Shown here: in pieces, positions 6,911-63,437 of the stretch | Layout: every line of letters starts with the position of its first letter | Position numbering within the stretch: the stretch's first letter is position 1 | Assembly (NCBI RefSeq): GCF_002848135.1 | Contig: NZ_PKGB01000006.1 | Location: 62,001-126,000 of the forward strand | Source: Hydrogenovibrio sp. SC-1 | GTDB taxonomy: Bacteria > Pseudomonadota > Gammaproteobacteria > Thiomicrospirales > Thiomicrospiraceae | Direction of reading: 5' to 3' | Length of the DNA stretch: 64,000 nt | Made by a program: the position numbers and the translations under genes | Notes under the pieces: model-generated | The model's database searches: none | The model's input: the letters and a program-made list of their open reading frames with translations, nothing else | Told to the model about the DNA's origin: nothing

Positions 6911-8266
6911 ATGTCAGAAACCACAACTGAAACCATTGCGGCTATTGCGACCCCTCCTGGACGAGGTGGGGTAGGGATTGTCCGCATATCCGGCGCAAAT
7001 GTGCCTGATATTGCTCGGCAGATACTGGGTGTGCTTCCTGCACCTCGGTATGCTCACTATGGCAATTTTTTAGGAGCCGAAGGTCAGGTTCTCGATCAAG
7101 GGATTGCATTGTATTTTCCCAATCCTCACTCCTTTACCGGTGAAGATGTGCTGGAATTACAAGGACACGGCGGGCCGGTTATCTTGCAGTGGTTATTAGA
7201 ACGGGTGGTGCAGCTAGGCGCACGGTTAGCAGAGCCAGGCGAGTTTTCTAAACAAGCATTTCTGAATGATAAGTTAGACTTGGCGCAGGCTGAGGCAATT
7301 GCAGATTTAATTGATGCTAGCTCCCAACAGGCTGCAAAGTCCGCTTTGAGGTCTTTGCAGGGCGCATTTTCGCATGAGGTGAATACATTACTCGAACAGC
7401 TGATTCAGTTACGTATTTATGTTGAAGCGGCAATTGATTTTCCAGAAGAAGAAATCGACTTTTTGTCGGATGGTAAGGTTGCTGGGGAATTACAGTCAAT
7501 TTTAACCCAGTTAAATCAGGTTTTGGCATCGGCTCAACAAGGGGTCTTGTTGCGTGAAGGAATGTCGGTGGTGATTTTGGGCCGCCCAAATGCGGGTAAG
7601 TCCAGTTTATTAAATGCCTTGTCAGGGCGGGAATCTGCCATTGTTACAGACATTGCTGGTACGACGCGAGATATCGTTAAAGAAGAAATCCAGGTTGATG
7701 GATTACCGTTGCATGTGCTGGATACCGCTGGCTTGAGAGAAACGACCGATGCAGTCGAACAAATTGGCGTGGCAAGAGCTTGGTCAGCAATTGAAGAGGC
7801 GGATCGAGTGTTGGTGGTGGTACAGGCCAATGAGTCCATACACCCAGAAGATCAAGCAATTTTAGCCAAACTCCCCAGTCATTTGCCGGTTACCTTGATT
7901 CATAACAAGATTGATTTAATTGAAAAAGCCCCAGGCCTGGTCGAATCTGAAGACCAAACAGAGATTTGGTTATCTGCCAAACATCACTTGGGTATGGATT
8001 TACTCAAGAATCATTTAAAAACGGCGATGGGGTATCAACAAACGGCGGAAGGCGTTTTTATGGCAAGAAAGCGCCATTTAGAAGCATTGAATCAAGCATT
8101 ACATTTCGTTGAAACTGGGCAAACCCAGCTTCAGCAATTTGCGGCGGGTGAATTGTTGGCAGAAGATTTACGCCAAGCACAACAGGCTTTATCGGAAATT
8201 ACCGGCCAATTTAGTTCAGATGATTTACTCGGCCGAATTTTTACCTCTTTCTGTATTGGAAAATAA
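6911..8266 (+). CDS. mnmE: tRNA modification GTPase MnmE
   Basis: With MnmG (also in this window) it makes the 5-carboxymethylaminomethyl group on wobble uridine-34. At 451 residues it has the N-terminal folate-binding domain ([20 protein letters not shown]), the embedded G domain ([24 protein letters not shown]) and the C-terminal FCIGK motif with its catalytic Cys. The ATG at 6911 is preferred over an upstream in-frame start at 6845, since that one lies inside the preceding terminator. A CCAGGCCTGG palindrome lies inside the gene at 7931. Confidence 0.97.
7931..7940. repeat. CCAGGCCTGG iterated palindrome, copy 1
   Basis: Exact 10-bp copy inside mnmE; flanks CC and TC, so only the right arm extends to the full 14-bp form. 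Confidence 0.6.
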
Positions 8267-11242: not shown

Positions 11243-12856
11243 ATGAATATTCAGTAGAAATTAGTCAGTTTCCCTTTTGTAATTGGCGCCTCAAGTCTTA
11301 TTGTCTTTATCCTCTCAATGATGTTTGTCATTTCAAATATTTCAAATCTGCTTGAAAATGAACACCCACGCTTAGCTGCGATTTATGAGTTGGAAATTAA
11401 TATTAATGAAGCGGCAACCGAAGTGTTTATTGTGAGTCGTACACATGTCAATCAAAATCAGAATAAGCATCTATTTGAAGATGCAATCTTAGACTTTAAA
11501 ACTAATTTTGACATTTACGATGCTTCACAAACGGAGGTGGATCGGCTAAATGAAAAAACACATTTATTTAAAGAACAAGCAGAAAATTTCATCGCCTTAG
11601 GAAGAAATATTTTTGAGTCGAACAGTGATTTAGTTCAAGAGTTGAATCAATTGCAAGCGCTCCTTTCTAATCACATTGATTACTTAGTCGATAAAGAATT
11701 TCAGAAAAGCTTAATCAATACGTCTGTTACACAGCAAGATGCCGATCAAGAAATTGATATCAATTTGTATGAAATTATCTCGGCTGTTAGAGGGTATGTA
11801 TTGGCGCCTGATCCGATGTTCTCGGATCGTATTATGGATTCAACGAGTGATATCTCCCATTGGATTTCCGTGTATCAGTCTCAACCCATGACTCAGCAGC
11901 AGCAGGGGTATATCAACCAATTAATGATGGATGTGCAGCGTATCGAAAAACTTAGCATTAAGGTTATATCATTAAAGGACAATATCGTTAAAGACTTGAT
12001 TCAATTTCAAGAACTTTATCGGCAAATTGATGACCTTTTGGATACGAACATCCAATTAGAAGAGCAAGCACGATTAGACCAGCAGGCAGTTCAAATTAAT
12101 AATGTATTGAAGTATTTGACAGCCTTTATGATACTGACGATCTGTGTGACCATGTTAATTTTGTATGGTGCGACTCAACCTATTATCAAGGTGATAAAGG
12201 CTTTAAATCAGAGTTCATCACTCTTTTCGACGTCGGGAAAAATTTCTCTGCCAAAGACTCAAGATGATGAGTTAGGAGAGCTTGCCGATCAGATGAAGCG
12301 TATGATGCAGTCGGTCAATGACACCCACCAAGAGCTTAAAGATGCTGCGCTACATGATCCTTTGACAGGATTGCCGAATAGGGCTTTATTGTTTGATCGA
12401 ATCAATCGTCTGATATCGGCGCAGCCTCGATCGAATCAGCTTTCGGCCATTGTCTATTTAGATTTGGATGATTTCAAGCGTGTCAATGACACCTTTGGTC
12501 ACGCTGTTGGTGATGAGCTACTCAATCAGATCTGCCAGAAAGTTGAAGGGCTCTTGAGACAAGCAGACACCTTATCTCGGGTGGGTGGCGATGAATTTAT
12601 AATTCTTTTACCTAACCAAGTTGATAAAGCACAAACACGTCAAATTTTAAACCGGATACTGGAAGCGGCAGTCGAGCCAATGGATATCAATGGGCATACA
12701 ATTCAAGTGTCGTCCAGTATTGGGGTTACCTTTTTATCGAATGATAATTTGGACGATGCGGATCAATTAATTCAACAAGCCGATCAAGCCATGTATCAAG
12801 CTAAGAATTCGGGCAAAAATGCCATTTGTTTTTTTGAAGATATCCAGCGGCAATGA
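11243..12856 (+). pseudogene. Membrane diguanylate cyclase (GGDEF) with an in-frame stop near its start
   Basis: From the ATG at 11243 the frame reads MNIQ, then TAG at 11255, then KLVSFPFVIGASSLIVFILS and on into the open frame at 11318. The sequence after the TAG is an obvious N-terminal transmembrane helix, so the stop cuts the natural protein. Re-initiation at ATG 11318 or 11321 would give 512 residues with half the helix lost. The rest is intact: a periplasmic helical sensor (to about residue 260), a second helix (YLTAFMILTICVTMLILYG), a HAMP-like linker and a GGDEF domain with SRVGGDEFIILL and an RQAD inhibitory site. The product would make c-di-GMP if the N-terminus is functional or the stop is a sequencing error. 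Confidence 0.65.
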
Positions 12857-14127: not shown

Positions 14128-17022
14128 ATGAATCAGTCATTTGCCCCTAGCCTTCAGCGTCCACAAGACAGTTCACACATGCCATTATTAGTGTCACACT
14201 TCATGCACTATGGATTAGTGACGTGTTCGTCTGATACGTTGATTAAAACGGTTATTCAACGGTTTAACCAACAGAAAATCGGTTCCATCTTGGTAGAGGA
14301 AGACCAAGAAATTGTCGGTATTTGGACACGAACCGATTTTGTAAAATTGGATATTACCCAACCGGACATATTGTTCCAGCCCATAAAAGAGGTGATGAAC
14401 TCGCCTGTTTGTCGAATCCATCAAGATGAGCTGATTTCATCCGCCACCTACCTTTTTCACAAAATGAAAATCCGTCATTTGTTGGTGGTTGATAATAGCG
14501 GTGATGGTGTTGGCGTTTTATCCGAGCTGGATTTGGTGAATGCCAAACAAAGTGAATCCTTTTTAGATGGCATTTTGCTTAAAGAATTAATGAGCGGTCA
14601 TTTAAATTGGGTGATGGCCGATGCGGCTTTGTCGGATGTGATGACCGTAATGGCAAATAAGTCGGTTGATGCCTTGGTGGTGAAAGACGAAGATGCTCAT
14701 GGCTTAATTTCGATTAGGGATTTATTAAAACATTTTGCCGAAGATGTTGAATCGCCATCTTTACCCGTTCGAGAATTGGCTTCTTGGCCTTTAAAGAGTG
14801 TTTCTGAATTGCAGAGCCTAGCAAATGTACGCCGTTTGATGATTGAAAACAATATTCATCATTTGGGCGTTGAAACGGCTACGGGCGAGTTAGTTGGGCT
14901 GATTAGCTTTACTGAATTGTTGCAGCATATTGAAGAAAATTTTCATTATCATGCTAGCCGAAGCATTAAAGAAAAAGAGCATCGGATATTAGAGGCCGAA
15001 ACCCTTTATCGTGATTTATTAGGCATGTCCTCAGATGGGATTCTCATTCATCAAAATCATAAGATTGCCTTTGCCAACCAAGAAATTATTCGCATGCTGG
15101 GGTACGACGAAAAGACCTTATTGTCTTTAACACTTGAGGCCATTATTCCACACCAAAATCGTGAAGATATTTTGGCGTGTATGGATGACAATGATCGCCA
15201 TCATCCGACAACGTCTGTGCATGAATTATTGTGTCATGATGGCCGTCTTTGTCAGGTACAAATGACCCATAAACCCATTACTTACCATGCGGAACCTGCG
15301 CACCTTATAGTCATCAATGATCTGACGTTTTTAGCTGAAAATGAGCGCTTTCAAATGCTAACCCGCTCGGTATTTGATAATGCCGGAGAAGGGATAGTCG
15401 TCACGGACGTCGAGAACCGATTTGTATTGGTGAATAGAAGATTTGAAGAAATTACCGGTTATCGTTTTTCGGATGTGGTTGGCAAAAAACCGTCTATTCT
15501 GAGTTCGGGTCAGCATAATCAAGCCTTTTATGAAGATATGTGGCAAACCTTAAAGCAGGAAGGGGTTTGGCAAGGAGAAATTTGGAATCGCAAAAAGGAT
15601 GGAACCATTTATCCAGAATGGTTAACGATTAATGAGGTTAGAAGTAATGCTGGTCGCGTTATTCATTATGTAGGTTTAATGAATGACTTGAGCCAGCAAA
15701 AAGCCACCGAGCAAGAGATAAATCGCCTGTCTTTTTATGATATTTTAACGGGCTTGCCCAATGTATCGTTATTTAAGAATCGTTTACAGCAGGCGATAAA
15801 AAAAACACGTAGTGAAACCAAGCAAGTGGCGCTACTCATTGTTGATATCGCCCGTTTTAAAACCATTAATGATGCGGTGGGTTATGAATATGGCGATCAA
15901 CTGTTGAAAAATGTGGCCATGCGCCTCAATAAGATGCTGGATTCTGAGGATTCTGTTGCTCGATTGGGTGCTGATAATTTTTTGATTCTGTTAGAGTCGA
16001 TCATGCATAAGAATGAAGTCTCTGAATTTGCTGAACAGCTTTTATCTTTATTTAAAACCCCCTTTGAAATTGGCAATCAATTCCATGTGTTGGATGTCAA
16101 GGTGGGGATCGCGATTTCCAGTCAGGATGGAGATCAAGCATTGGATTTAATGAAGTCGGCTGATGAAGCTTTGTTTGAAGCTAAAAAGGCGCCCCATAGT
16201 CAATATGCTTACCACACAACCGCATTGACTGAATCCACGACGGAAGTGTTTTATTATGAAAATGCACTGAGAAAAGCCATCGATCAAAAACAGTTGGTGG
16301 CCTATTATCAACCACAGATCGCATTTGATACCGGAGAGGTGATTGGTGCAGAGGCGTTGGTGCGTTGGACTCACCCTGAATTGGGTTTGGTGATGCCCTA
16401 TAAATTCATTGATATTGCCGAGTCAACCGGATTAATTATTCCTTTAGGTCGAGATATGTTATTGCAGGCTTGTCAGCAGTGGTTCGACTGGAAATCACAG
16501 GGGTTGGTTTTGCAACGCATATCGGTCAATGTTTCTACCGTACAACTCATGCATCCAGGGTTTGTATCAACGGTCGCTGAAGTGTTACATTTAACGGGTC
16601 TTAAGGCAGAGGTGCTTGAGCTGGAGGTGACCGAAAGTTTCTTGCTACAGGATGAACAAGCTGGTATTGAAATGCTTCATCAACTGAAAGAACTGGGTGT
16701 GAAGCTAGCAATGGATGACTTTGGTACCGGCTTTTCTTCGCTGTCCTATCTTAAAAAATTGCCATTAGATCAGCTTAAAATTGATCAATCATTCATTCGA
16801 TCGCTTCCAGATGATAAAGAGGATATTGCCATTGTTGATGCCATTATTGCCGTGGGCAATGCAGTGGGTGTAGAAGTCATTGCTGAGGGCGTGGAAAAAC
16901 AGCGACAAGTCGCTTATCTACAACAAAAAGGCTGTCAGCTAGGGCAAGGATATTGTTACAGCCCGCCATTAGAGGCAAAGGCCTTTATCTCTTGGTGTCA
17001 GAATCATCTGAAATCGTCATAA
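14128..17022 (+). CDS. 4xCBS-PAS-PAS-GGDEF-EAL signalling protein
   Basis: A 964-residue cytoplasmic c-di-GMP protein. Four CBS motifs (about 20-80, 85-145, 148-208, 215-275) likely bind adenine nucleotides. Two PAS domains follow (about 290-400 and 410-525). The GGDEF domain (about 535-690) is degenerate: the signature reads GADNF. The EAL domain (about 710-960) keeps AEALVRW, DDFGTGFSSL, IDQSFIR and AEGVE. The prediction is a c-di-GMP phosphodiesterase tuned by nucleotides and a PAS signal, with the cyclase domain regulatory at most. No transmembrane segment is seen. Confidence 0.9.
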   Translation: MNQSFAPSLQRPQDSSHMPLLVSHFMHYGLVTCSSDTLIKTVIQRFNQQKIGSILVEEDQEIVGIWTRTDFVKLDITQPDILFQPIKEVMNSPVCRIHQDELISSATYLFHKMKIRHLLVVDNSGDGVGVLSELDLVNAKQSESFLDGILLKELMSGHLNWVMADAALSDVMTVMANKSVDALVVKDEDAHGLISIRDLLKHFAEDVESPSLPVRELASWPLKSVSELQSLANVRRLMIENNIHHLGVETATGELVGLISFTELLQHIEENFHYHASRSIKEKEHRILEAETLYRDLLGMSSDGILIHQNHKIAFANQEIIRMLGYDEKTLLSLTLEAIIPHQNREDILACMDDNDRHHPTTSVHELLCHDGRLCQVQMTHKPITYHAEPAHLIVINDLTFLAENERFQMLTRSVFDNAGEGIVVTDVENRFVLVNRRFEEITGYRFSDVVGKKPSILSSGQHNQAFYEDMWQTLKQEGVWQGEIWNRKKDGTIYPEWLTINEVRSNAGRVIHYVGLMNDLSQQKATEQEINRLSFYDILTGLPNVSLFKNRLQQAIKKTRSETKQVALLIVDIARFKTINDAVGYEYGDQLLKNVAMRLNKMLDSEDSVARLGADNFLILLESIMHKNEVSEFAEQLLSLFKTPFEIGNQFHVLDVKVGIAISSQDGDQALDLMKSADEALFEAKKAPHSQYAYHTTALTESTTEVFYYENALRKAIDQKQLVAYYQPQIAFDTGEVIGAEALVRWTHPELGLVMPYKFIDIAESTGLIIPLGRDMLLQACQQWFDWKSQGLVLQRISVNVSTVQLMHPGFVSTVAEVLHLTGLKAEVLELEVTESFLLQDEQAGIEMLHQLKELGVKLAMDDFGTGFSSLSYLKKLPLDQLKIDQSFIRSLPDDKEDIAIVDAIIAVGNAVGVEVIAEGVEKQRQVAYLQQKGCQLGQGYCYSPPLEAKAFISWCQNHLKSS

Positions 17023-33643: not shown

Positions 33644-36130
33644 TTATTCGGCGAGTTTACTGAGGATTTCAGTCATGTCAAGAGATGAAATAGGTCGACT
33701 GTAGTAGTAGCCTTGATGTTGGTAGCATTGATGATTAATGAGGAAGGACTTTTGTTCAAGTGTTTCAACACCTTCGGCTATCACTGTCAAGCCAAGGCTC
33801 TCAGCCATCGCAATCATGGTTTTGGTAATGACTGCATCTTCTTCATCCTGAGGCAGATCTAAAATAAAAGATTTATCAATTTTCAATTTCGTGACAGGTA
33901 GTCGTTTTAAGTAAGCGAGAGAGGAATAACCTGTGCCAAAATCATCAATGGCAATATGAAAGCCAAACTGTTTCAGTTGTGTTAGTTTGAAATTCATTTT
34001 CTCTAGGTTTTCCATTAGGTTGCTTTCAGTAATTTCGAATTCAATCCATTCCGGTTTGCAGTTAGATTGCTTCAGGAGTTCGTCAAGTTTTTCGATAAAG
34101 TCATCTTGCTGGAGGTGCTTGACTGTTAAGTTCAGAGATAGCTTTGGTGGGTTAAGACCGAGATCGAACCAGTGTTTGAGCTGGTGTAGTGCCCCGCGCA
34201 TCACTTGTCGATCTAATTCGACAATGAGATTGGATTCTTCGGCAACTGGAATAAAAGCGATGGGTGGTAATAGTCCTTTGGTGGGATGTTGCCAGCGGAC
34301 CAAAGCTTCCATGCCAATTAGTTTTTCGGTTACTGCATGATATTGCGGTTGATAGTAAACTAAAAACTCTTGTTGATGTAGGGCTTGGCGAAGGCTGCTT
34401 TGCATGGCCATTTGCTCAAACGCTTTATTGCTGAGTTCTTCTGTATAAAACTGGAAGTTATTTCGACCTTCATCTTTGGCGCGATACATTGCAGCGTCAG
34501 CATATTTAAGGAGGTCTTCAGGGGTGTCGGCATCTTTTGGGTAGAGGCTCATCCCAATGCTGTTGGACAAAAGAAATGTATGACCTGTCACTTGGATGGG
34601 GTCATGGGTCGCATCCAATATCTTTTGTGCAAGGGTAACGGCATCTTGCGGGCTGTTAAGAGATTCTTGCAAAATAGTGAACTCATCCCCTCCCAGTCTA
34701 GCTAAGGTGTCTTCGGCTCGAATGGTACGGCGAATTCGGTTGGCAATGATTTTCAGTACTTCATCACCGATATCATGCCCGAGAGAATCATTGATCTTTT
34801 TGAACTGATCCAGGTCAATAAAATGCACAGCAAAAGCGGTTTGAGCACGTTTAGCTTTTTCGATGGCGTATTGTAAGCGGTTATTAAACAAAGTTCGGTT
34901 GGGTAACTGGGTTAATTCATCGTGATGCGCTTGATGTTTTAAGATTTCTGTTTGGTGTTTGAGCTGGATTTCTAAATTGCGACGTTCGGTAATGTCTTCA
35001 TAGGTACCGAGCATACCGACAATTTGTTGCTGACCGTTTTTCAAAGGCATTCTCGAAACTAGCCAAGTTTTTTCGGAGCCATCTTCATCAACATAACTTT
35101 CTTGTTGGGTGAGTGTTGATTGACCGGATTCAATAATGGCCATATCGGTTTGGAAGTAGTAATCGCCTTGGTCGTCTTGCCAAGGTAAATCATAATCGGT
35201 TTTGCCGATTAATTGCTGCTGAGATTCAAGTTGTGCATCCGATAGGAATAGTTGGTTCGCGCCTAAGTATTTGCCCGCTAAGTCTTTCCAGAAAATGCGA
35301 ACCGGAACGGTTTCCAATACATTTTCCATTAACTCTTTCTGTTGGGTTAATTGGGCTTCAATGTTTTTTAATTCTGAAATGTCTGTGTCAAATAACACCA
35401 CCGCATCCTGGCCCTGATAGGGTAGGTGCTGCAAAATGGCTTTAACAGGGTATCGACTGCCATTTTTGCGCTGGTGAATAGAGAGGTTGGTCACCGTTTT
35501 CTGGCTGCCTTCAAGCGCTTTCAGTTTTTCAACGTGCTCAAGGGTTAGATAAGGGTTGGTGTCCAGTACGGTGAGTTGCGTCAATTCTTCAAGCGTGTAG
35601 CCTAGGTTATTTAAAGCGCAGTCATTCGCATATAAATATCGTAGGTTATGGTAGTCAAAAATATAGATTTCCTGGTGGGCAATTTGCATTAAATGCGCCA
35701 ATTCTTGATATCGACGTTCCAGTTGTATCAGATGGGTAATGTCGCTGGAAATACCAACGGCTTTTATTGGGGTTTGATTTTCATCATATTCAATGTGGCC
35801 AACCAATTCGATAAATACTTCTGTGCCGTCTTCTCTAACCAATTTATGCGACAAATGTTGTTTTTGGCCTGTTTCAATGGCCGTTTTCAGTTTGCGCTGC
35901 ATTCGTTCGCGATCGGTCACTGAAAGGGAGTTGAGGAGATAGTCCAATGTTGGGGAGAAGGTGGCTGGGTCTTTGCCGTGCATTTTGTAGATTTCACTGG
36001 ACCAACTCAGCTTGCCGGTTGCAATATCCAGTTCCCATAGACCCACCTTGGCAAACTCCTGGAGTTGTATCAACCGTTTTTCTTGCTTTTGCAAGGTCGG
36101 TTCAGCTTGTTCAAGCGGGCGATGTGACAT
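33644..36130 (-). CDS. Multi-PAS GGDEF-EAL bifunctional c-di-GMP protein
   Basis: An 828-residue soluble protein. Three PAS/PAC-type domains (about 20-140, 140-260, 265-390: GKLSWSSEIYKMHG, FIELVGHIEYDENQTP, VPVRIFWKDLAGKYLGAN) precede GGDEF (about 395-560, TLARLGGDEFTILQ with RAED inhibitory site) and EAL (about 575-820, MEALVRWQHPT, DDFGTGYSSLAYL, AEGVET). Both catalytic motifs are intact, so it could make or degrade c-di-GMP depending on the signal. The ATG is used rather than an upstream in-frame TTG at 36145. Confidence 0.92.
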   Translation of the reverse strand: MSHRPLEQAEPTLQKQEKRLIQLQEFAKVGLWELDIATGKLSWSSEIYKMHGKDPATFSPTLDYLLNSLSVTDRERMQRKLKTAIETGQKQHLSHKLVREDGTEVFIELVGHIEYDENQTPIKAVGISSDITHLIQLERRYQELAHLMQIAHQEIYIFDYHNLRYLYANDCALNNLGYTLEELTQLTVLDTNPYLTLEHVEKLKALEGSQKTVTNLSIHQRKNGSRYPVKAILQHLPYQGQDAVVLFDTDISELKNIEAQLTQQKELMENVLETVPVRIFWKDLAGKYLGANQLFLSDAQLESQQQLIGKTDYDLPWQDDQGDYYFQTDMAIIESGQSTLTQQESYVDEDGSEKTWLVSRMPLKNGQQQIVGMLGTYEDITERRNLEIQLKHQTEILKHQAHHDELTQLPNRTLFNNRLQYAIEKAKRAQTAFAVHFIDLDQFKKINDSLGHDIGDEVLKIIANRIRRTIRAEDTLARLGGDEFTILQESLNSPQDAVTLAQKILDATHDPIQVTGHTFLLSNSIGMSLYPKDADTPEDLLKYADAAMYRAKDEGRNNFQFYTEELSNKAFEQMAMQSSLRQALHQQEFLVYYQPQYHAVTEKLIGMEALVRWQHPTKGLLPPIAFIPVAEESNLIVELDRQVMRGALHQLKHWFDLGLNPPKLSLNLTVKHLQQDDFIEKLDELLKQSNCKPEWIEFEITESNLMENLEKMNFKLTQLKQFGFHIAIDDFGTGYSSLAYLKRLPVTKLKIDKSFILDLPQDEEDAVITKTMIAMAESLGLTVIAEGVETLEQKSFLINHQCYQHQGYYYSRPISSLDMTEILSKLAE

Positions 36131-36245
36131 TACAGTTCTCAACAATAAATTGTTGGTCAGTATAGCGCAGGTTTTTTTAGAAAGGTATATTTCACAGGGA
36201 ATTGATGATAGAGATATTTTATTAGGATATTGGTTTGGTTTTGTA

Positions 36246-52623: not shown

Positions 52624-53134
52624 ACCTTGGTAGAAAAGCTTCTGTCAGCAAAAGAGGGGCTTGTTGCTGCTTGAAGATGGAACGGCGTGCAAATGTTGGC
52701 CCTTGCGGCCAATCAGTCGTTAAGTGTGGCCAATAATCTGCGGGATGTTGACACAATTCAAAAGGGGTTCTTTCTAAGTTTGGGATCTGAAAGAGCACCT
52801 CACCTAAGGGTCGATTGCCGAGATGTTTGATTTGGTACCAAGGGTTGTTGGGTTGCCAATCTGGAATCACGGTTCGCGCATAGATCATAGGCAGCCCCTT
52901 TACATGGAGGCAGACACAGCGTACCCACACTTTTTCTCCTGACGCTAATTCTAATAAACGTGCTTCTGACGCCATGGGCGTTGCTAATCCCTCGGCGAGC
53001 ACTTCCACTTCAATCGCGCCAAACGTTTGGCGTAGGTTTTCAGTAAGAGATCCATTGTCTAATAACCACGGCTTAAGTTCAGTGGGTAAACCCAACCGTT
53101 CAAGTAAGCGCAAAGGAAGCCAGTGTTTAAGCAT
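52613..53134 (-). CDS. ubiC: Chorismate lyase
   Basis: Converts chorismate to 4-hydroxybenzoate, the first step of ubiquinone synthesis. The 173-residue protein shows LDNGSLTENLRQ, WVRCVCLH, YARTVIP, LGNRPLGEVLF, FARRSIF and TEAFLP, the UbiC pattern with its active-site Arg and Glu. Its ATG overlaps the recG stop by 8 bp, indicating coupled translation. Confidence 0.93.
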   Translation of the reverse strand: MLKHWLPLRLLERLGLPTELKPWLLDNGSLTENLRQTFGAIEVEVLAEGLATPMASEARLLELASGEKVWVRCVCLHVKGLPMIYARTVIPDWQPNNPWYQIKHLGNRPLGEVLFQIPNLERTPFELCQHPADYWPHLTTDWPQGPTFARRSIFKQQQAPLLLTEAFLPRFKV

Positions 53135-55202
53135 GTTTATAATCCATCTTGGTTCCCACCCATCGCTGATGAAGCTGATCGCTGATTTCGGGTGCAGTTT
53201 TAACTAAAGTTTGTGCCCAGTGTTTTGCTTCAGGGATAAGGTGTTGGTCGCGCTTTAAGTCGGCAATGCGAAATTGGAGGCCACCCGTTTGGCGCGTGCC
53301 TAAAATTTCACCTGGCCCGCGAATTTTCAAATCTTCTTCGGCGATTCTAAAACCATCATTGGATTCACGCATAATATGCAATCGAGCTTTACTCGTTTCA
53401 CTTAAAGGGGCTTGATAGAGTAACACGCAATGACTTTTTTTGCTGCCTCGGCCGACACGTCCTCTCAATTGGTGCAGTTGTGCCAGCCCTAGTCGTTCAG
53501 CGTTTTCAATAATCATTAAACTGGCATTTGGGACATTGACGCCCACTTCAATCACTGTTGTGGCCACTAGCAAATCTAGCTGATGGTTTTTGAACGCATC
53601 CATTAGTAAGGATTTTTCATCTCCCTTTAGTCGGCCATGAATCAAGCCCACTCTTAATTTTGGCCAGTAATCTCTAAATTGCTGTGCGGTGACTTCGGCG
53701 GCTTGGGCATGCAGTAATTCAGACTCTTCAATTAAGGGGCATACCCAATAAGCTTGCACTCCCTGCTCACATTGTGCGACCAGATGCGCCATCACATCAT
53801 GACGCTTTTCATTGCTTAACACGGCGGTATCAATCGGCTGACGGCCAGGTGGTAGTTCATCGATAATCGATAAATCCAAATCGCCATAAGCGGTCATGGC
53901 TAAAGTCCGTGGAATAGGCGTTGCCGTCATAATTAATTGGTGTGGATGTGCTTGGTCGTTTTGGGTGCCTTTATCATGGAGGGCTAAGCGTTGGTGCACA
54001 CCAAAGCGGTGTTGCTCATCGATAATCACCAACCCCAGTTTGTGAAAGATGACCGCCTCTTGGAAGAGCGCGTGAGTGCCGATAATGACTTTTGCATGGC
54101 CTTGTGAAATTTGTTCGAGCATATAGCGCTTTTCGGCGGCTTTCATGCGACCATTTAACCAAGCCATTTCAATTGAAAGCGGTTGTAACCATTCCGAAAA
54201 ATGATTGCGGTGTTGTTCGGCAAGAATTTCAGTGGGCGCCATTATGGCCACTTGATAGCCGGTATCTGCCGCTTGAATCGCAGCCAAAGCGGCGATGACG
54301 GTTTTGCCTGAACCGACATCCCCTTGCACTAATCGTTGCATGGGATGCGGTTGTTGCAGGTCGGCCTGCAATTCGCCTAGCACCCGTTGTTGAGCAGAGG
54401 TCAATGCAAAGGGGAGTAACGCTAATAGATGATTGACCATTTGACTGGCTGGAAAAACAGGAGCCTGACGCCGTTTCTCAACTTGTCGAATCCATTGCAA
54501 ACTGAGTTGGCTACTGAGCAATTCTTCAAAGATGAGGCGGCGTTGTGCCGGGTGTTGGAATTGCTTGATGCTCAGAAGGTCATCCTCCGGTTGTGGTTGA
54601 TGAAGCTGACGTAGAGCTTCATTAATCGGTGGTAATTGGAGACTGTCACATAAAGTTTCAGGCAAGATTTCGGCTAAAGGGTATTGTTTTAATAACTGTA
54701 GTGCTTGTTGTATTAGCTTGAGCAGCGTCGCTTGACCTAAGCCTTCGGTCACAGGATAGACGGGGTTTAAGGTGGTTTCTAAGGGTGGCGGAGAGCTGAG
54801 TGAGAATAGTTGATAGTGGGGGTGTACCATTTCCAATCCGGTAGGGCCAGAACGTACTTCACCAAAGGCTCTTAAGCCCTGTCCTCTTTTAAATTGCTGT
54901 GCTTGACGATAATGAAAGTGAAAGAAGCGGCAGGTGAGGGTTTGGCCGGAAGAGTCAATAAGCTTTACCAGTAAACTACTGTTGCGGCTTTGGGTCATCT
55001 GTTGGCTGATGATTTCACCTTCTATGAGTGCTTCTTGGCCAATAAATATCTGGCCCAAAGGGGTGAGCTTGGTTTTGTCCTGATAGCGAATTGGCAAGTG
55101 AAACAACAAATCTTGTACCACCGTTAATCCTAAACGGTGTAGCTTTTCAGCCAATTTATCGCCAACACCTTTTAAAGACGTTAATTTTTGTTGTGCCAAC
55201 AT
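53127..55202 (-). CDS. recG: ATP-dependent DNA helicase RecG
   Basis: Remodels stalled forks and branched DNA. The 691-residue protein has the wedge domain (about 1-200, LTSLKGVGDKLAEKLHRLG), helicase motifs (QGDVGSGKTVIAALA, DEQHRFGV, MTATPIPRTLA, ATTVIEVGVNVPNA, QLRGRVGRG) and a typical RecG C-terminus. ATG 55202 matches the E. coli length; an in-frame TTG lies 42 bp upstream. Confidence 0.97.
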   Translation of the reverse strand: MLAQQKLTSLKGVGDKLAEKLHRLGLTVVQDLLFHLPIRYQDKTKLTPLGQIFIGQEALIEGEIISQQMTQSRNSSLLVKLIDSSGQTLTCRFFHFHYRQAQQFKRGQGLRAFGEVRSGPTGLEMVHPHYQLFSLSSPPPLETTLNPVYPVTEGLGQATLLKLIQQALQLLKQYPLAEILPETLCDSLQLPPINEALRQLHQPQPEDDLLSIKQFQHPAQRRLIFEELLSSQLSLQWIRQVEKRRQAPVFPASQMVNHLLALLPFALTSAQQRVLGELQADLQQPHPMQRLVQGDVGSGKTVIAALAAIQAADTGYQVAIMAPTEILAEQHRNHFSEWLQPLSIEMAWLNGRMKAAEKRYMLEQISQGHAKVIIGTHALFQEAVIFHKLGLVIIDEQHRFGVHQRLALHDKGTQNDQAHPHQLIMTATPIPRTLAMTAYGDLDLSIIDELPPGRQPIDTAVLSNEKRHDVMAHLVAQCEQGVQAYWVCPLIEESELLHAQAAEVTAQQFRDYWPKLRVGLIHGRLKGDEKSLLMDAFKNHQLDLLVATTVIEVGVNVPNASLMIIENAERLGLAQLHQLRGRVGRGSKKSHCVLLYQAPLSETSKARLHIMRESNDGFRIAEEDLKIRGPGEILGTRQTGGLQFRIADLKRDQHLIPEAKHWAQTLVKTAPEISDQLHQRWVGTKMDYKHA

Positions 55203-55250
55203 CGTGATCGGTTCCAAGCTAAAAGCAAGGGCATATTTTAACAATAATGA

Positions 55251-55304: not shown

Positions 55305-57146
55305 CTAATAGATAACCCATTGGCTTTTGCCGCGTTTTTTAGCGGTATACATGGCTTGGTCAGCGCGTTTGAGTAGGTCATCCACAGAGCAATGGCACTG
55401 GTCATCAAATAATGTTAACCCGACTGAGGCACTAATAGTCACCACTTCTCCACAAGGGAGTTCAATGTCCAATTGCATGGCTGCAATGATTTTGTCGGCA
55501 ACGGTCGCAGCATAGCTGTCATTTTGAATGCCTTCCAGTAAAATAACGAATTCATCTCCGCCAAATCGGGCTGCCAAATCCACTTTACGGATGGACGCTT
55601 GAATACGTTTGGCAGCTTCCTTGAGTAGATAGTCGCCCGCATCATGACCATGAACGTCATTCACATTTTTAAAACCATCTAAGTCGATAAAGAATAGTGC
55701 ATTGGTTTGTGGCTGGCGTTTGAGTCGTAACAGCGATTTATCCAATTCAGTGACCAGTAGTCGACGTTTTGCTAAGCCAGTGAGCAGGTCATAGTTGGCC
55801 ACATGAATGGTTTCGGCAATCAATTCTTCTTTTTCGGAACTGATCTGATTAAAGGCTTGAGTAACATTGTTGTAGTAGGCGGCAATCACTGAGGCATCGG
55901 AATAGGGTTCGATCATAATGCGTTTGGAAAAGTCTTGATTAGTCGCTTGAATATTCATCGCATGCGCTAAATCAAACATGGAGGTCGAGGCTTGATGTTC
56001 GCTGATATTGAGCCCTAAAATTTCATCGGTTTCCGAAACACGCAACGGCATAATGCGATTAATGAGCCAAAGAGCGGCAAAAGTCACACAGAAACTTAGC
56101 ATGCCAACACTGACAATTCCCAGTAGTTGAATTTGTAATTGCTCAACCAAGGGGTGATCTGTTTGAAGAAAAGGAATCGCTAAGGTGCCGGCAATGCCCG
56201 CAAATAGATGTACGGGAACCGCTTCTATTGCATCATCAATCTTTAATTTAGCCAGTACCACTTGTCCCCATAAATAGGCCAAATATCCGACAAAGCCGAT
56301 AAGAATGGCGGCGAAAGGGGACGCTAGGTGTGCGGAGGCGGTAATGGCAACCAGGCCGGATAAGATACCATACATGATGGAACCGACTTGATAATAGCCA
56401 GTGAGAATGCGACTGATAATCAGGCCAGAAATGCCACCCACGGCACCGGCAATCATGGTGTTTAGAATGACCTGGCCGGTGAGTACATTTAGTGCTAACA
56501 CACTGCCGCCATTAAAACCGATCCATCCAAGCCAAATCAGGAAAACGCCCAAGGCGCTATGGGCCAAATTGGCTTGTTCAAAACGGTGGGAGTCGGCCGT
56601 TTCATCAAAACGCCCGATACGCGGACCAATAATCAAAATGGCTGCTAAAGCTGCCCAACCACCAACTGAGTGAACCACGGTTGAGCCAGCAAAATCAATA
56701 AATCCTAGTTGCGCAAGCCAGCCGGCTTCATGCCAAATCCAGTGGGCTTGTATTGGGTAAATGAATAATGACACGATTAAGGCGATTAAGATATATGCGA
56801 CATACTTGGTTCTTTCCGCAATGGCTCCGGAAATAATGGTGACGGCGGTCGAGGCAAACATGGCGTGAAACAGCACAAGGGTGAGATCGGTTAGTGAGTC
56901 ATGGTAAAAGAACAATGGCTGCCAACTGAACCAACCGTTGAGGCTGTTGCCCAACATCATACTTGCACCAAAAAAAACAAAAACTAAGAACGCAATCAGG
57001 AAGTCACTGAGGTTTTTGATTGCGGTGGAAATGGAATTTTTTGCACGAGTTGCTCCCGCTTCAAGTGCTGTAAAGCCAGGCTGCATCAATGCAACCAGCA
57101 CCGCACTGAAAAGCACCCATAAAATATCGACGCTTTGCTCACTCAT
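55305..57146 (-). CDS. Ammonium transporter (Amt) fused to a GGDEF diguanylate cyclase
   Basis: A 613-residue membrane protein. The Amt part (about 1-370, some eleven helices) keeps the conserved HAMFASTAVTIISGAIAER segment and both pore histidines (His159 in VVHSVGGWAAL, His313 in AVPVHLFAGIAGT). A linker (about 370-445) leads to a GGDEF domain (about 450-613) with RFGGDEFVILLE at 527-538 and an intact RKVD inhibitory site. The prediction is an ammonium receptor that controls c-di-GMP synthesis, though transport may persist. ATG 57146 is used; an upstream TTG is in frame. No glnK is adjacent, unlike amtB operons. Confidence 0.9.
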   Translation of the reverse strand: MSEQSVDILWVLFSAVLVALMQPGFTALEAGATRAKNSISTAIKNLSDFLIAFLVFVFFGASMMLGNSLNGWFSWQPLFFYHDSLTDLTLVLFHAMFASTAVTIISGAIAERTKYVAYILIALIVSLFIYPIQAHWIWHEAGWLAQLGFIDFAGSTVVHSVGGWAALAAILIIGPRIGRFDETADSHRFEQANLAHSALGVFLIWLGWIGFNGGSVLALNVLTGQVILNTMIAGAVGGISGLIISRILTGYYQVGSIMYGILSGLVAITASAHLASPFAAILIGFVGYLAYLWGQVVLAKLKIDDAIEAVPVHLFAGIAGTLAIPFLQTDHPLVEQLQIQLLGIVSVGMLSFCVTFAALWLINRIMPLRVSETDEILGLNISEHQASTSMFDLAHAMNIQATNQDFSKRIMIEPYSDASVIAAYYNNVTQAFNQISSEKEELIAETIHVANYDLLTGLAKRRLLVTELDKSLLRLKRQPQTNALFFIDLDGFKNVNDVHGHDAGDYLLKEAAKRIQASIRKVDLAARFGGDEFVILLEGIQNDSYAATVADKIIAAMQLDIELPCGEVVTISASVGLTLFDDQCHCSVDDLLKRADQAMYTAKKRGKSQWVIY

Positions 57147-57296
57147 GGTCAAATCACTTTAATGATGAAATCATAAGCTTTTAAGCAAGAAACATACCTT
57201 TTATTAGTTTTTATTTATATCTAGGGTATTAGTGGGTATTTATTAGAGCTATCAAAACTCCAAGTCTTGTTTAGGGACATAGTTATGCATGTATTG

Positions 57297-57328
57297 CGCA
57301 AAAATGACCAGGCCTGGTCATTTTTGCG
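57297..57328. repeat. Perfect 32-bp palindrome containing CCAGGCCTGG (copy 7)
   Basis: The exact 10-mer is at 57308-57317. The symmetry runs 16 bp each way (CGCAAAAATGACCAGG and its complement). In RNA it forms a stem with a GGCC loop and a T-run, so it could end ridA transcription. Confidence 0.7.
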
Positions 57329-57342
57329 AGCGCTAAGCATTT

Positions 57343-57729
57343 TTAGTAAGAAGAAATGACCAAGATGCCATCCATTTCCACATCTGTGCCTTTCGGGAGT
57401 TCCTTGACGCCAATTGCGGCTCTAGCAGGATAAGGTTGCTGAAAATATTCAGCCATAATTTCGTTAACCGTGGCAAAGTGGCTGAGATCGGTTAAGAAAA
57501 TATTGAGTTTCACGATTTCTTGTAGTGAACCCCCAGCGGACTCGCAGACGGCAGTGAGATTCTGAAAAACTTGATGGATGCGCTCGGAAATGTCTCCGGC
57601 TCGTAATTCCATGGTTTCAGGGATAAGAGCGATTTGACCAGATAAATAAACCGTATTGCCTACTTTAATGGCTTGTGAATAGGGGCCAATGGCTTGTGGG
57701 GCTTTATCAGTTGCAATAATTTCACGCAT
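57343..57729 (-). CDS. ridA: RidA/YjgF-family enamine/imine deaminase
   Basis: Clears reactive enamines made by PLP enzymes. The 128-residue trimer-type protein shows [29 protein letters not shown], and the conserved Arg in [23 protein letters not shown]. It is divergent from the metal ABC operon and downstream is the 32-bp palindrome. Confidence 0.95.
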
Positions 57730-61373: not shown

Positions 61374-63437
61374 TTATACTTGGGTAAAGACCAGTGCTAG
61401 TACATCGTTTCGATAGCCATCGCCATTCTTGTATTCTCGATAACCTTCACTCATTTTATAACCCACTAAATAATTATCGCCATTCAGCTTGGTATGAAAA
61501 CTGCCTGTGTCGCCATTTTTACTGGATTGGGTCGATTTTGGTAAATCAATTACGCTGCCGATTTGAAAAGAGTCGATGGTGGACGCAATCACTTCTCCTT
61601 CTGGGGTGGTGAAAACGCTGAAGGTTGATTCGTCCAGTGTTTTGTTAATGTATTTGGGCAAGGTGTCTTCTAGCATCGCTTTGAATTCAGGGGTACTGTC
61701 AAATACGAGTGCAATACCGCCAACGGTCTTTTGATCGTTACGCCAGTCTCTAACGGCAGCATGATAAATATAAGTTGAGTGGTTGTCATAGAGCGAGGTT
61801 GCATGAAAGTCAGACACGGTATAGTGTTGAGTATTATCGATCGCAAGACATTGGGCGGTGTCTTGTGGTCGTGGAAGCACTGTATCAATCAAGTGTGTTT
61901 GAGTCGGATCAGAAACGGCAACCACTTTGCCCTGATGATCATACAAAATAATATTGGTGTAAACCGTATAGAGCTGGTTAATGTATTGCAAAATCTCGGT
62001 TAGGGTTTCCGTTTCGGATTCTCCAATCAATTGTCCGTCTTTATGTTGGCTTAAGTGTTTTCGAAAAGTACTGTTGAGTGCCCACCAGCGGCAATCGTTA
62101 GCGCGCTCATACAAGTTTCGATCCATGATTTCAATCGCCAGCATGGCGCTGAATTTCACCTTGCTTTGAACGGTTTCGACCAACACTGAGTGAATGTGAT
62201 GAATGAATCGTTCAAATAAGGCTTGAATGTCATGGCTGATATCTTGAAAGCTGTCGAGAACCGGTAAGAACGATTGCACATTACGCTTTAAAGAGGTGAT
62301 TTTGCCGTTGAGAATGACGATCAACAGTAAGGTGCTGACTTTTAGGTTGGTTTCTTCCAGTTCATTCATGTAGATAGGGGATGATGGGTCAATATCAACG
62401 TCTAGGGTGTCATCGGTCTGGGTTTTATTAAATGCCACTTCATGACTTGCATAAGATCGGCAAAACCATTTCAGACCGTAGAATCCTTGGTAACCATGTG
62501 TTCGAGTGGTATAGGTTAGACCTTGTTGTGTGGTTCTTGGTGTTTCAGTAATGGATGGTGCCGCTTGCTTTTTTCCAATTGGATGGCCTGTGTGGTTGTT
62601 GCTGGCAAGCAAGGTGCCGTGCTCGTCAACAAGGGTGATCTGATGACCGTTTTCATCAGGCTCTAAAATATTAAAAATCCCCGCCATTTCTTGAGTAAAA
62701 GAAAATCTTAGGCAAAGCACGCCCAATACGGTTGCTGAATCTGATTGGGAAGCGACAATGCGTTTGGCATAGATTAAGCTGTTTTCATGATTTGGAAATA
62801 AGTCTGAGTGACGATAGACTTCAACATAAGGCGCATCCGTTTGAATGGCTTCGGTAATCAGGGGGTCATGGCTACGAGTGACAGGGTTGTTTGGGTTCAG
62901 TTTAACTGCCACCTCGCCATCTGGGCGCAATAACAAAATATCCTCATAAACGCTGTATTTTGCCACATATTCTTGAATGCGATTTTCAATAAAGTCATGA
63001 TCATCACTGGATGGCTTTGGCATTTTAAGATAGTCAATAATGTCATCATCTGTCGCTAAAAACCCTACATCAGCGGTTCTTTCAAATAGGTTTCGGATAA
63101 TGATATCGATGGTGGCTTGCGACTTTAAAATGATTTCGCTGTTAGCTTGGTTTAGATAGCGACTCACCAATGCATGGAGCATGTCGCTGCGAAGATTTTG
63201 AAAGGCCTTTTGGGTTTCAACAATCGATTCTAACAATTGTGGATCCATATTCTCATTATTAATCTTACCGACCATTGCAACGGTGGTCCACCATAAGTCC
63301 TGGTGATCCAGTTCATTAAGGTATTTTTTGACCTCGGGTAAGTATTCCATGTAGGTTTTCAAGTTTTGTGTCGTACCAGTATTCATAGACCTATCTTTTA
63401 ATATGTTTGAGGTTGTAATAGGTTCAATCGAGTGCAT
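61374..63437 (-). CDS. Cytoplasmic tandem Cache/PDC-like sensor protein
   Basis: A 687-residue protein with two similar halves. RNLFERTADVGFLATDD (residues 115-131) recurs as RNLYERANDCRWWALNS (440-456), and YSVYEDILLLRPDGEVAV as YTVYTNIILYDHQGKVVA. Each half looks like a Cache/PDC ligand-binding fold, with GVLCLRFSFTQEM and GGIALVFDSTPEF closing. No output domain, signal peptide or clear membrane helix is visible, which is unusual for Cache proteins. ATG 63386 (17 codons in) is an alternative start with an AGG just upstream. Function unknown; perhaps a soluble sensor for chemotaxis or c-di-GMP signalling. Confidence 0.7.
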   Translation of the reverse strand: MHSIEPITTSNILKDRSMNTGTTQNLKTYMEYLPEVKKYLNELDHQDLWWTTVAMVGKINNENMDPQLLESIVETQKAFQNLRSDMLHALVSRYLNQANSEIILKSQATIDIIIRNLFERTADVGFLATDDDIIDYLKMPKPSSDDHDFIENRIQEYVAKYSVYEDILLLRPDGEVAVKLNPNNPVTRSHDPLITEAIQTDAPYVEVYRHSDLFPNHENSLIYAKRIVASQSDSATVLGVLCLRFSFTQEMAGIFNILEPDENGHQITLVDEHGTLLASNNHTGHPIGKKQAAPSITETPRTTQQGLTYTTRTHGYQGFYGLKWFCRSYASHEVAFNKTQTDDTLDVDIDPSSPIYMNELEETNLKVSTLLLIVILNGKITSLKRNVQSFLPVLDSFQDISHDIQALFERFIHHIHSVLVETVQSKVKFSAMLAIEIMDRNLYERANDCRWWALNSTFRKHLSQHKDGQLIGESETETLTEILQYINQLYTVYTNIILYDHQGKVVAVSDPTQTHLIDTVLPRPQDTAQCLAIDNTQHYTVSDFHATSLYDNHSTYIYHAAVRDWRNDQKTVGGIALVFDSTPEFKAMLEDTLPKYINKTLDESTFSVFTTPEGEVIASTIDSFQIGSVIDLPKSTQSSKNGDTGSFHTKLNGDNYLVGYKMSEGYREYKNGDGYRNDVLALVFTQV

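Follow-up and report, generated by a model that had tools for sequence, protein, structure and literature searches.

A predicted ammonium receptor and diguanylate cyclase of the Sd-Amt1 type in Hydrogenovibrio sp. SC-1

Introduction

Amt domains form trimers, and in receptor-type Amt proteins, as in the protein described here, the Amt domain is joined to a C-terminal signalling output. The closest described counterpart of our protein is Sd-Amt1, which appears in the PDB under the titles 'Receptor Sd-Amt1 (OFF-state)' (8qj3), '(ON-state)' (8qj4) and 'Ammonium Transporter Amt1 from Shewanella denitrificans' (8qpf), all released on 2024-06-12. The deposited chains are 644 and 661 residues long, possibly with tags counted in; about 400 residues are resolved, so that the cyclase part is absent from the structures. 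In the paper on Sd-Amt1 (Science Advances, 2024) the linker is reportedly a HAMP domain, the protein has a two-ammonium site and its transducer domains pair. Going by the PDB titles, the activity of Sd-Amt1 itself is probably ammonium-dependent.

The other relevant system is Ks-Amt5 of 'Candidatus Kuenenia stuttgartiensis', a receptor-type Amt with a C-terminal histidine kinase. The PDB entry 6eu6, 'Sensor Amt Protein', is presumably the Ks-Amt5 entry. Its letters agree with the Ks-Amt5 residues named in PMC5764959, and that source describes two ammonium ions inside the membrane, held by Q24, E31, N47, D50, T51, T109 and T112, the binding of ammonium without efficient transport and, by the authors' account, the lack of a HAMP domain. 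Among the titles and abstract openings listed by literature searches, none concerned an Amt-GGDEF protein; the portions seen of PMC10433425, PMC12918730 and PMC8534201 contain no Amt-cyclase, and nor do those of PMC5209957, PMC2330054 and PMC2907700, which are irrelevant to the subject.

Here we analyse an Amt-GGDEF gene in a 64,000-nucleotide stretch of the Hydrogenovibrio sp. SC-1 genome (the window).

Results and Discussion

A single frame encodes an Amt domain, a HAMP-like linker and a GGDEF domain

The gene lies on the minus strand, a point left out of the initial annotation, at 55305..57146 and is a single intact frame of 613 residues, running from an ATG at 57146 to a stop codon at 55305-55307 with no internal stops. 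A TTG is in frame upstream, at 57152; M-S-E/D-Q is found at the position of the ATG in nine of the 18 full-length family members, within the 25 letters compared. The initial annotation had read this frame as a full Amt channel joined to a GGDEF domain, and both domains were recovered: PF00909 matched residues 9-387 (55986..57122, minus strand; 6e-102; profile positions 1-397 of 399) and PF00990 residues 450-608 (55323..55799, minus strand; 2.6e-40; profile positions 1-160 of 161). The Amt domain also scored 357 bits with TIGR00836, above the cut-off of 343.3, and 285.5 bits with the marine-subtype model TIGR03644, below its curated cut-off of 514, as was also the case for the six relatives scanned. 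AlphaFold2 modelled the protein as one chain, from an alignment of 33 sequences, with a mean pLDDT of 92.5. The open frame, this model and the full-length match to 8qj3 (E 8.3e-121) lead us to name the whole gene as encoding a predicted ammonium receptor / diguanylate cyclase.

The best full-length matches in the PDB sequence search were 8qj3/8qj4 and 8qpf, which aligned over residues 1-608, including the GGDEF domain, with E-values of 8.3e-121 and 9.2e-121. The fold of the Amt domain matched 6eu6, 8qj4 and 8qj3 with Z-scores of about 60, the match to 6eu6, which stood beside those to Sd-Amt1, having a Z-score of 60.1 over 382 residues and an rmsd of 1.8. The Amt-GGDEF kind of protein is therefore already known, since Sd-Amt1 has the same layout of Amt, linker and GGDEF domain and structures have been solved for its Amt part. 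The Amt parts are 43-45% identical, and RxxD is present in both proteins. However, Sd-Amt1 has GGEEF where the Hydrogenovibrio protein has GGDEF, and the Hydrogenovibrio protein lacks nine residues in the loop that follows the Trp of the selectivity filter.

Within the cyclase domain the GGDEF motif (residues 529-533, 55548..55562, minus strand) and the RxxD inhibition-site motif RKVD (residues 520-523, 55578..55589, minus strand), five residues before it, are both intact, as first annotated. The metal- and guanine-binding residues of a diguanylate cyclase are present (FFIDLDGFKNVNDVHGHDAGD together with GGDEF), the roles of the single residues being those that we take over from PleD. GGDEF is found in all 18 full-length family members and RxxD in 14, with four lacking it, so feedback through RxxD is not essential to this type of protein. 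The metal- and guanine-binding pattern was matched in 17 of the 18, the exception being L211.

The two domains are connected by a HAMP-like linker, residues 388-447 (55806..55985, minus strand), recognised by hhalign against HAMP domains of the same genome and by the AlphaFold2 model. The model has helices at 390-403 and 417-451, the second of which leads into the GGDEF domain, at a lower confidence than elsewhere (block mean pLDDT of 69-85 over 391-450). Pfam's HAMP model did not match the Amt-GGDEF protein alone at 0.01. With hhalign, 16 orthologue linker rows scored 28.5 against the same-genome HAMP profile, which was built from 16 of the genome's 24 HAMP matches after eight weak or second matches had been left out; the best of 100 column shuffles scored 17.1. 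All 59 fused linker rows, which count the Amt-GGDEF protein twice (P0001 and its copy L148) and leave out Ks-Amt5 and fused frames with an early-ending match, scored 55.9, again compared with 17.1 for the best of 100 shuffles. A HAMP-like pattern is common to the aligned linkers of the 59 fused proteins, that of Sd-Amt1 aligning with this set, and two relatives, L160 and L193, have Pfam HAMP matches at the linker, below Pfam's cut-off. Judged by its sequence profile, the segment between the membrane part and the output is a two-helix, HAMP-like linker.

The Amt domain retains its pore motifs and carries the two-ammonium site

Alignment to Ks-Amt5 confirmed that both pore histidines had been read correctly: H159 (56670..56672, minus strand) aligns with H171 of Ks-Amt5 and H313 (56208..56210, minus strand) with H326. 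F97 and F211 of the Phe gate and W138 and S215 of the selectivity filter are retained as well, and with a full-length Amt domain, the twin histidines, the Phe gate and the outer selectivity filter the protein belongs to the Amt/Mep/Rh family.

The residues of the two-ammonium site fall in two parts. The first, Q22, E29, N45 and D48, followed by F49 (57003..57083, minus strand), corresponds to Q24, E31, N47, D50 and T51 of Ks-Amt5, and the second, T103 and S106 (56829..56840, minus strand), to T109 and T112; the Sd-Amt1 letters of the second part are identical to ours. Over the whole site, QENDFTS, the protein agrees with Sd-Amt1 at seven of seven positions and with Ks-Amt5 at five of seven (T51 being replaced by F and T112 by S). 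Across the genome (2.45 million bases) there are three matches to Amt, two to P-II and 59 to GGDEF, and the site letters of the two other Amts are AENLFSS, in the Amt beside a P-II gene on contig C5, and HEIDLAS. The former is of the AmtB-GlnK type and shares with the Amt-GGDEF protein the pore motifs and the fold, compared here with E. coli AmtB structures, but has no output domain and is 36-39% identical to the Amt part.

In the aligned set, QENDxT[ST] is kept in 55 of 57 fused proteins, a sample that was found by similarity to the Amt-GGDEF protein and so leans towards its relatives; frames with fewer than 330 aligned Amt residues and identical copies were left out of the alignment. The same pattern occurs in 20 of the 42 Amts with a tail shorter than 200 residues, so that the site is typical of a broader set of Amts and does not on its own prove a receptor. 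Short-tailed Amts with the receptor letters at the two-ammonium site include L031, L051, L161-L166, L168-L171, L173 and L188-L192, proteins that may transport ammonium, sense it by way of a partner, or do both; among these, L164 runs off its contig, and L173 and L190 have stops within their matches. A further one of the 20, L052, comes from a MAG in which, at about 7350-7800, an in-frame stop in the tail of the Amt protein is followed by same-frame sequence that appears HAMP-like by eye, and it looks like a fused protein interrupted by this stop.

The three bulky residues said to close the pore of Ks-Amt5 (F27, Y30 and F34) correspond to F25, L28 and A32 in the Amt-GGDEF protein, where Y30 and F34 are thus replaced by L and A, to F, F and N in Sd-Amt1 and to F, L and L in the P-II-linked Amt of the same genome. 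A closed pore is therefore not supported, because only one of the three closing residues is kept, and the P-II-linked Amt shares it.

Ancestry of the Amt part and possible exchange of outputs

We built a tree of 94 rows, after removing from 102 eight that were near-duplicate, cut or stop-bearing, by a quick method that left some long branches, that of Ks-Amt5 among them. The Amt-GGDEF protein falls together with Sd-Amt1 in a branch of 46 rows, all fused, with an SH-aLRT support of 99, although the two lie in different sub-branches of the fused group. Ks-Amt5 joins this branch next, with supports of 90 and 93 on the neighbouring branches, and on this tree the Amt part therefore shares its ancestry with known receptors. 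The label 'fused' requires two changes over the tree, a number as low as which was seen in none of 500 shuffles, and L052 is the sole exception inside the fused cluster. On this quickly built tree, the pattern fits a receptor module that arose once and later exchanged its outputs.

Pfam assigned varied outputs to 38 relatives: GGDEF alone in five (two of these being orthologues from the host's own family), GGDEF with PAS and/or EAL in 14, a chemoreceptor signalling domain in seven, a histidine kinase in five, GAF in one and PAS only in one. It found no output in the remaining five (L031, L052, L054, L161 and L163). In several of the 14 relatives of the PAS/EAL type a missing EAL is uninformative, because the sequence stretch ends there. 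Across this wider sample, related Amts with HAMP-like linkers carry cyclases, GGDEF-EAL proteins, kinases or chemoreceptor domains.

The proteins that join Amt to a methyl-accepting chemotaxis signalling domain are L029/L215 and L216, all from the host's family, and L158, L160, L172, L187 and L196; L029 and L216 have two to three HAMP matches between the two parts. These fusions, which keep QENDxT[ST], are candidate ammonium chemoreceptors; a literature search on Amt-chemoreceptor fusions returned nothing evidently about such proteins. Outputs of the (PAS-)GGDEF-EAL kind were found in L048, L049, L050, L150-L153, L159, L167, L174 and L195, and through such GGDEF-EAL fusions an Amt input may drive both the making and the breaking of c-di-GMP.

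Distribution and constraint

Searching other genomes for the Amt-GGDEF architecture, as had been suggested for this gene, revealed it in 17 further genomes of the host's family, in addition to the PDB protein Sd-Amt1. At a threshold of 1e-75 the Amt part with its linker matched in 21 of 62 family genomes, 18 of which, including the host's own, have the full Amt-GGDEF frame; of the other three, two carry a chemoreceptor domain in place of the cyclase and the third is truncated where its contig stops. Within the genus the count is 10 of 11 genomes, and the named relatives are Hydrogenovibrio sp. JE_KL2 (69%), Thiomicrorhabdus sp. ZW0627 (71%) and a Piscirickettsiaceae MAG (85%). The Sd-Amt1 type is thereby extended to a lineage related to Hydrogenovibrio and Thiomicrorhabdus.

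At the level of the class, 25 of 369 genomes matched at 1e-75 (14 fused and 11 not), and at that of the phylum 25 of 398 (20 fused and five not), the host genome being counted among the fused in both; these splits were made by match reach and frame length rather than by Pfam for each row. In the plasmid collection at least three Vibrio records, all from strains of sp. THAF, had a match with 35% identity that covered 80% of the query or more, and the one Vibrio sp. THAF plasmid protein that was checked is also Amt-GGDEF by Pfam.

Compared with the 85% orthologue, dN/dS was 0.05-0.07 for the Amt part, 0.05-0.12 for the linker and 0.02-0.04 for the GGDEF domain by two methods, with dS saturated. 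Two more distant pairs gave a usable dN/dS for one segment only, the linker, at 0.14.

Predicted function of the protein

We consider it highly probable from this analysis that the Amt-GGDEF protein works in the membrane as an Sd-Amt1-type receptor for ammonium and makes c-di-GMP. Its most likely function is to sense ammonium and not to take it up as a nutrient, and 'transporter', the word used in the initial annotation, is probably wrong, since the two-ammonium site of Ks-Amt5 and Sd-Amt1 is present and Ks-Amt5 binds ammonium without transporting it efficiently (PMC5764959). Ammonium that has passed the outer selectivity filter would settle in the two-ammonium site (Q22, E29, N45, D48, T103 and S106), where it would not mainly be used as a nutrient. 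Bound ammonium would then shift the HAMP-like helices that follow the last transmembrane helix, and the moved helices would pair the cyclase domains of neighbouring subunits, allowing GTP to be converted to c-di-GMP, while the RxxD site would damp the cyclase when its product is high. The domains, motifs, site residues, HAMP-like linker, conserved join and grouping with fused Amts are observed; the binding of ammonium, the direction of the ON state, cyclase activity, low transport and any downstream behaviour of the cell are inferred. The biofilm switch proposed in the initial annotation is supported neither way, as the genome has 59 GGDEF matches and no target of c-di-GMP is linked to this particular one. 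The proposed link from external ammonium to c-di-GMP survives as the best reading, by homology to Sd-Amt1 with its ON- and OFF-state receptor titles; the idea that a cyclase fusion goes a step beyond the Amt-histidine kinases has to be dropped, as Sd-Amt1, for whose Amt part structures have been solved, already joins Amt to GGDEF.

The protein could instead be a transceptor, in which the pore is not closed as it is in Ks-Amt5, ammonium is carried and its flux is reported to the cyclase, with c-di-GMP following in step. All of the pore residues checked (H159, H313, F97, F211, W138 and S215) are kept, and of the three side chains that close the pore in Ks-Amt5 the protein lacks two. However, the protein groups with receptors and has the receptor site, uptake can be served by the two further Amts in the genome, one of them beside a P-II gene, and the example of Ks-Amt5 (PMC5764959) shows that a protein may keep its pore motifs intact and yet not be a transporter. 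We regard a transceptor as unlikely. A constitutive cyclase that keeps its Amt part only for location or trimer formation, with no sensing, appears less probable still: single cyclases may be redundant in a genome with 59 GGDEF matches, but constraint on the Amt part is much the same as on the other segments of the protein, and the site residues are kept in 55 of the 57 aligned fused proteins. There is next to no chance that a sequencing or assembly artefact has joined two genes, and a frameshift or assembly join was ruled out, because 17 other family genomes keep the same stop-free join at 60-85% identity and a PDB protein has the identical layout.

An Sd-Amt1-type receptor acting directly from ammonium to c-di-GMP would tie a nutrient to a signalling molecule within one protein. 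The 18 natural variants, 14 with and four without RxxD, provide material on how an Amt trimer drives a dimeric enzyme.

Neighbourhood and genome context

The gene is followed, 60 bases after its stop codon, by recG (53127..55244, minus strand) and preceded by ridA (RidA/YjgF-like; 57343..57729, minus strand), both frames being named by sequence reading. Between ridA and the Amt-GGDEF gene, direct reading of the sequence showed a 32-base perfect inverted repeat with runs of A and T (57297..57328, minus strand). The repeat is absent from the consensus scan, which requires a loop; it is terminator-like and suggests that the Amt-GGDEF gene is transcribed separately from ridA.

The gene has both neighbours, ridA and recG, in the window, L015/L045, L018, L024 and L047 (where they are several kilobases off), ridA alone is near it in L016 and L017, and neither was present in the stretches compared for L019-L023, L025-L028 and L044. 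In G015, G016 and G022, which have no Amt-GGDEF gene, ridA adjoins recG. These variable flanks among orthologue loci do not support a fixed operon or partner gene.

No sigma-54 promoter was found in the gap 57147-57342 at up to two mismatches, and the sigma-54 pattern occurs in the window at chance level (49 matches compared with 43.2 expected), as did the sigma-70 scan (5 compared with 5.8 expected). Rfam, at gathering scores, and a tRNA scan gave nothing in the window, and PHROGs matched eight families, all unnamed.

The reported absence of glnK nearby was borne out: the genome has its two P-II matches on contig C5, where one P-II gene adjoins the ordinary Amt, while the Amt-GGDEF gene is on contig C6 and has no adjacent P-II gene of the kind that defines the AmtB-GlnK type.

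The window contains four GGDEF matches, at 11318-12856, 14128-17022, 33644-36145 and 55305-57146. At 61374-63437, on the minus strand, it encodes a 687-residue protein with two double-Cache stretches, for which Pfam found no output domain. In some family members (L224, L226 and L227) the match to RecG is split, its first piece stopping near position 427 of the window RecG, and their frames have 766 to 804 residues compared with 705 in the window, the difference being an insertion.
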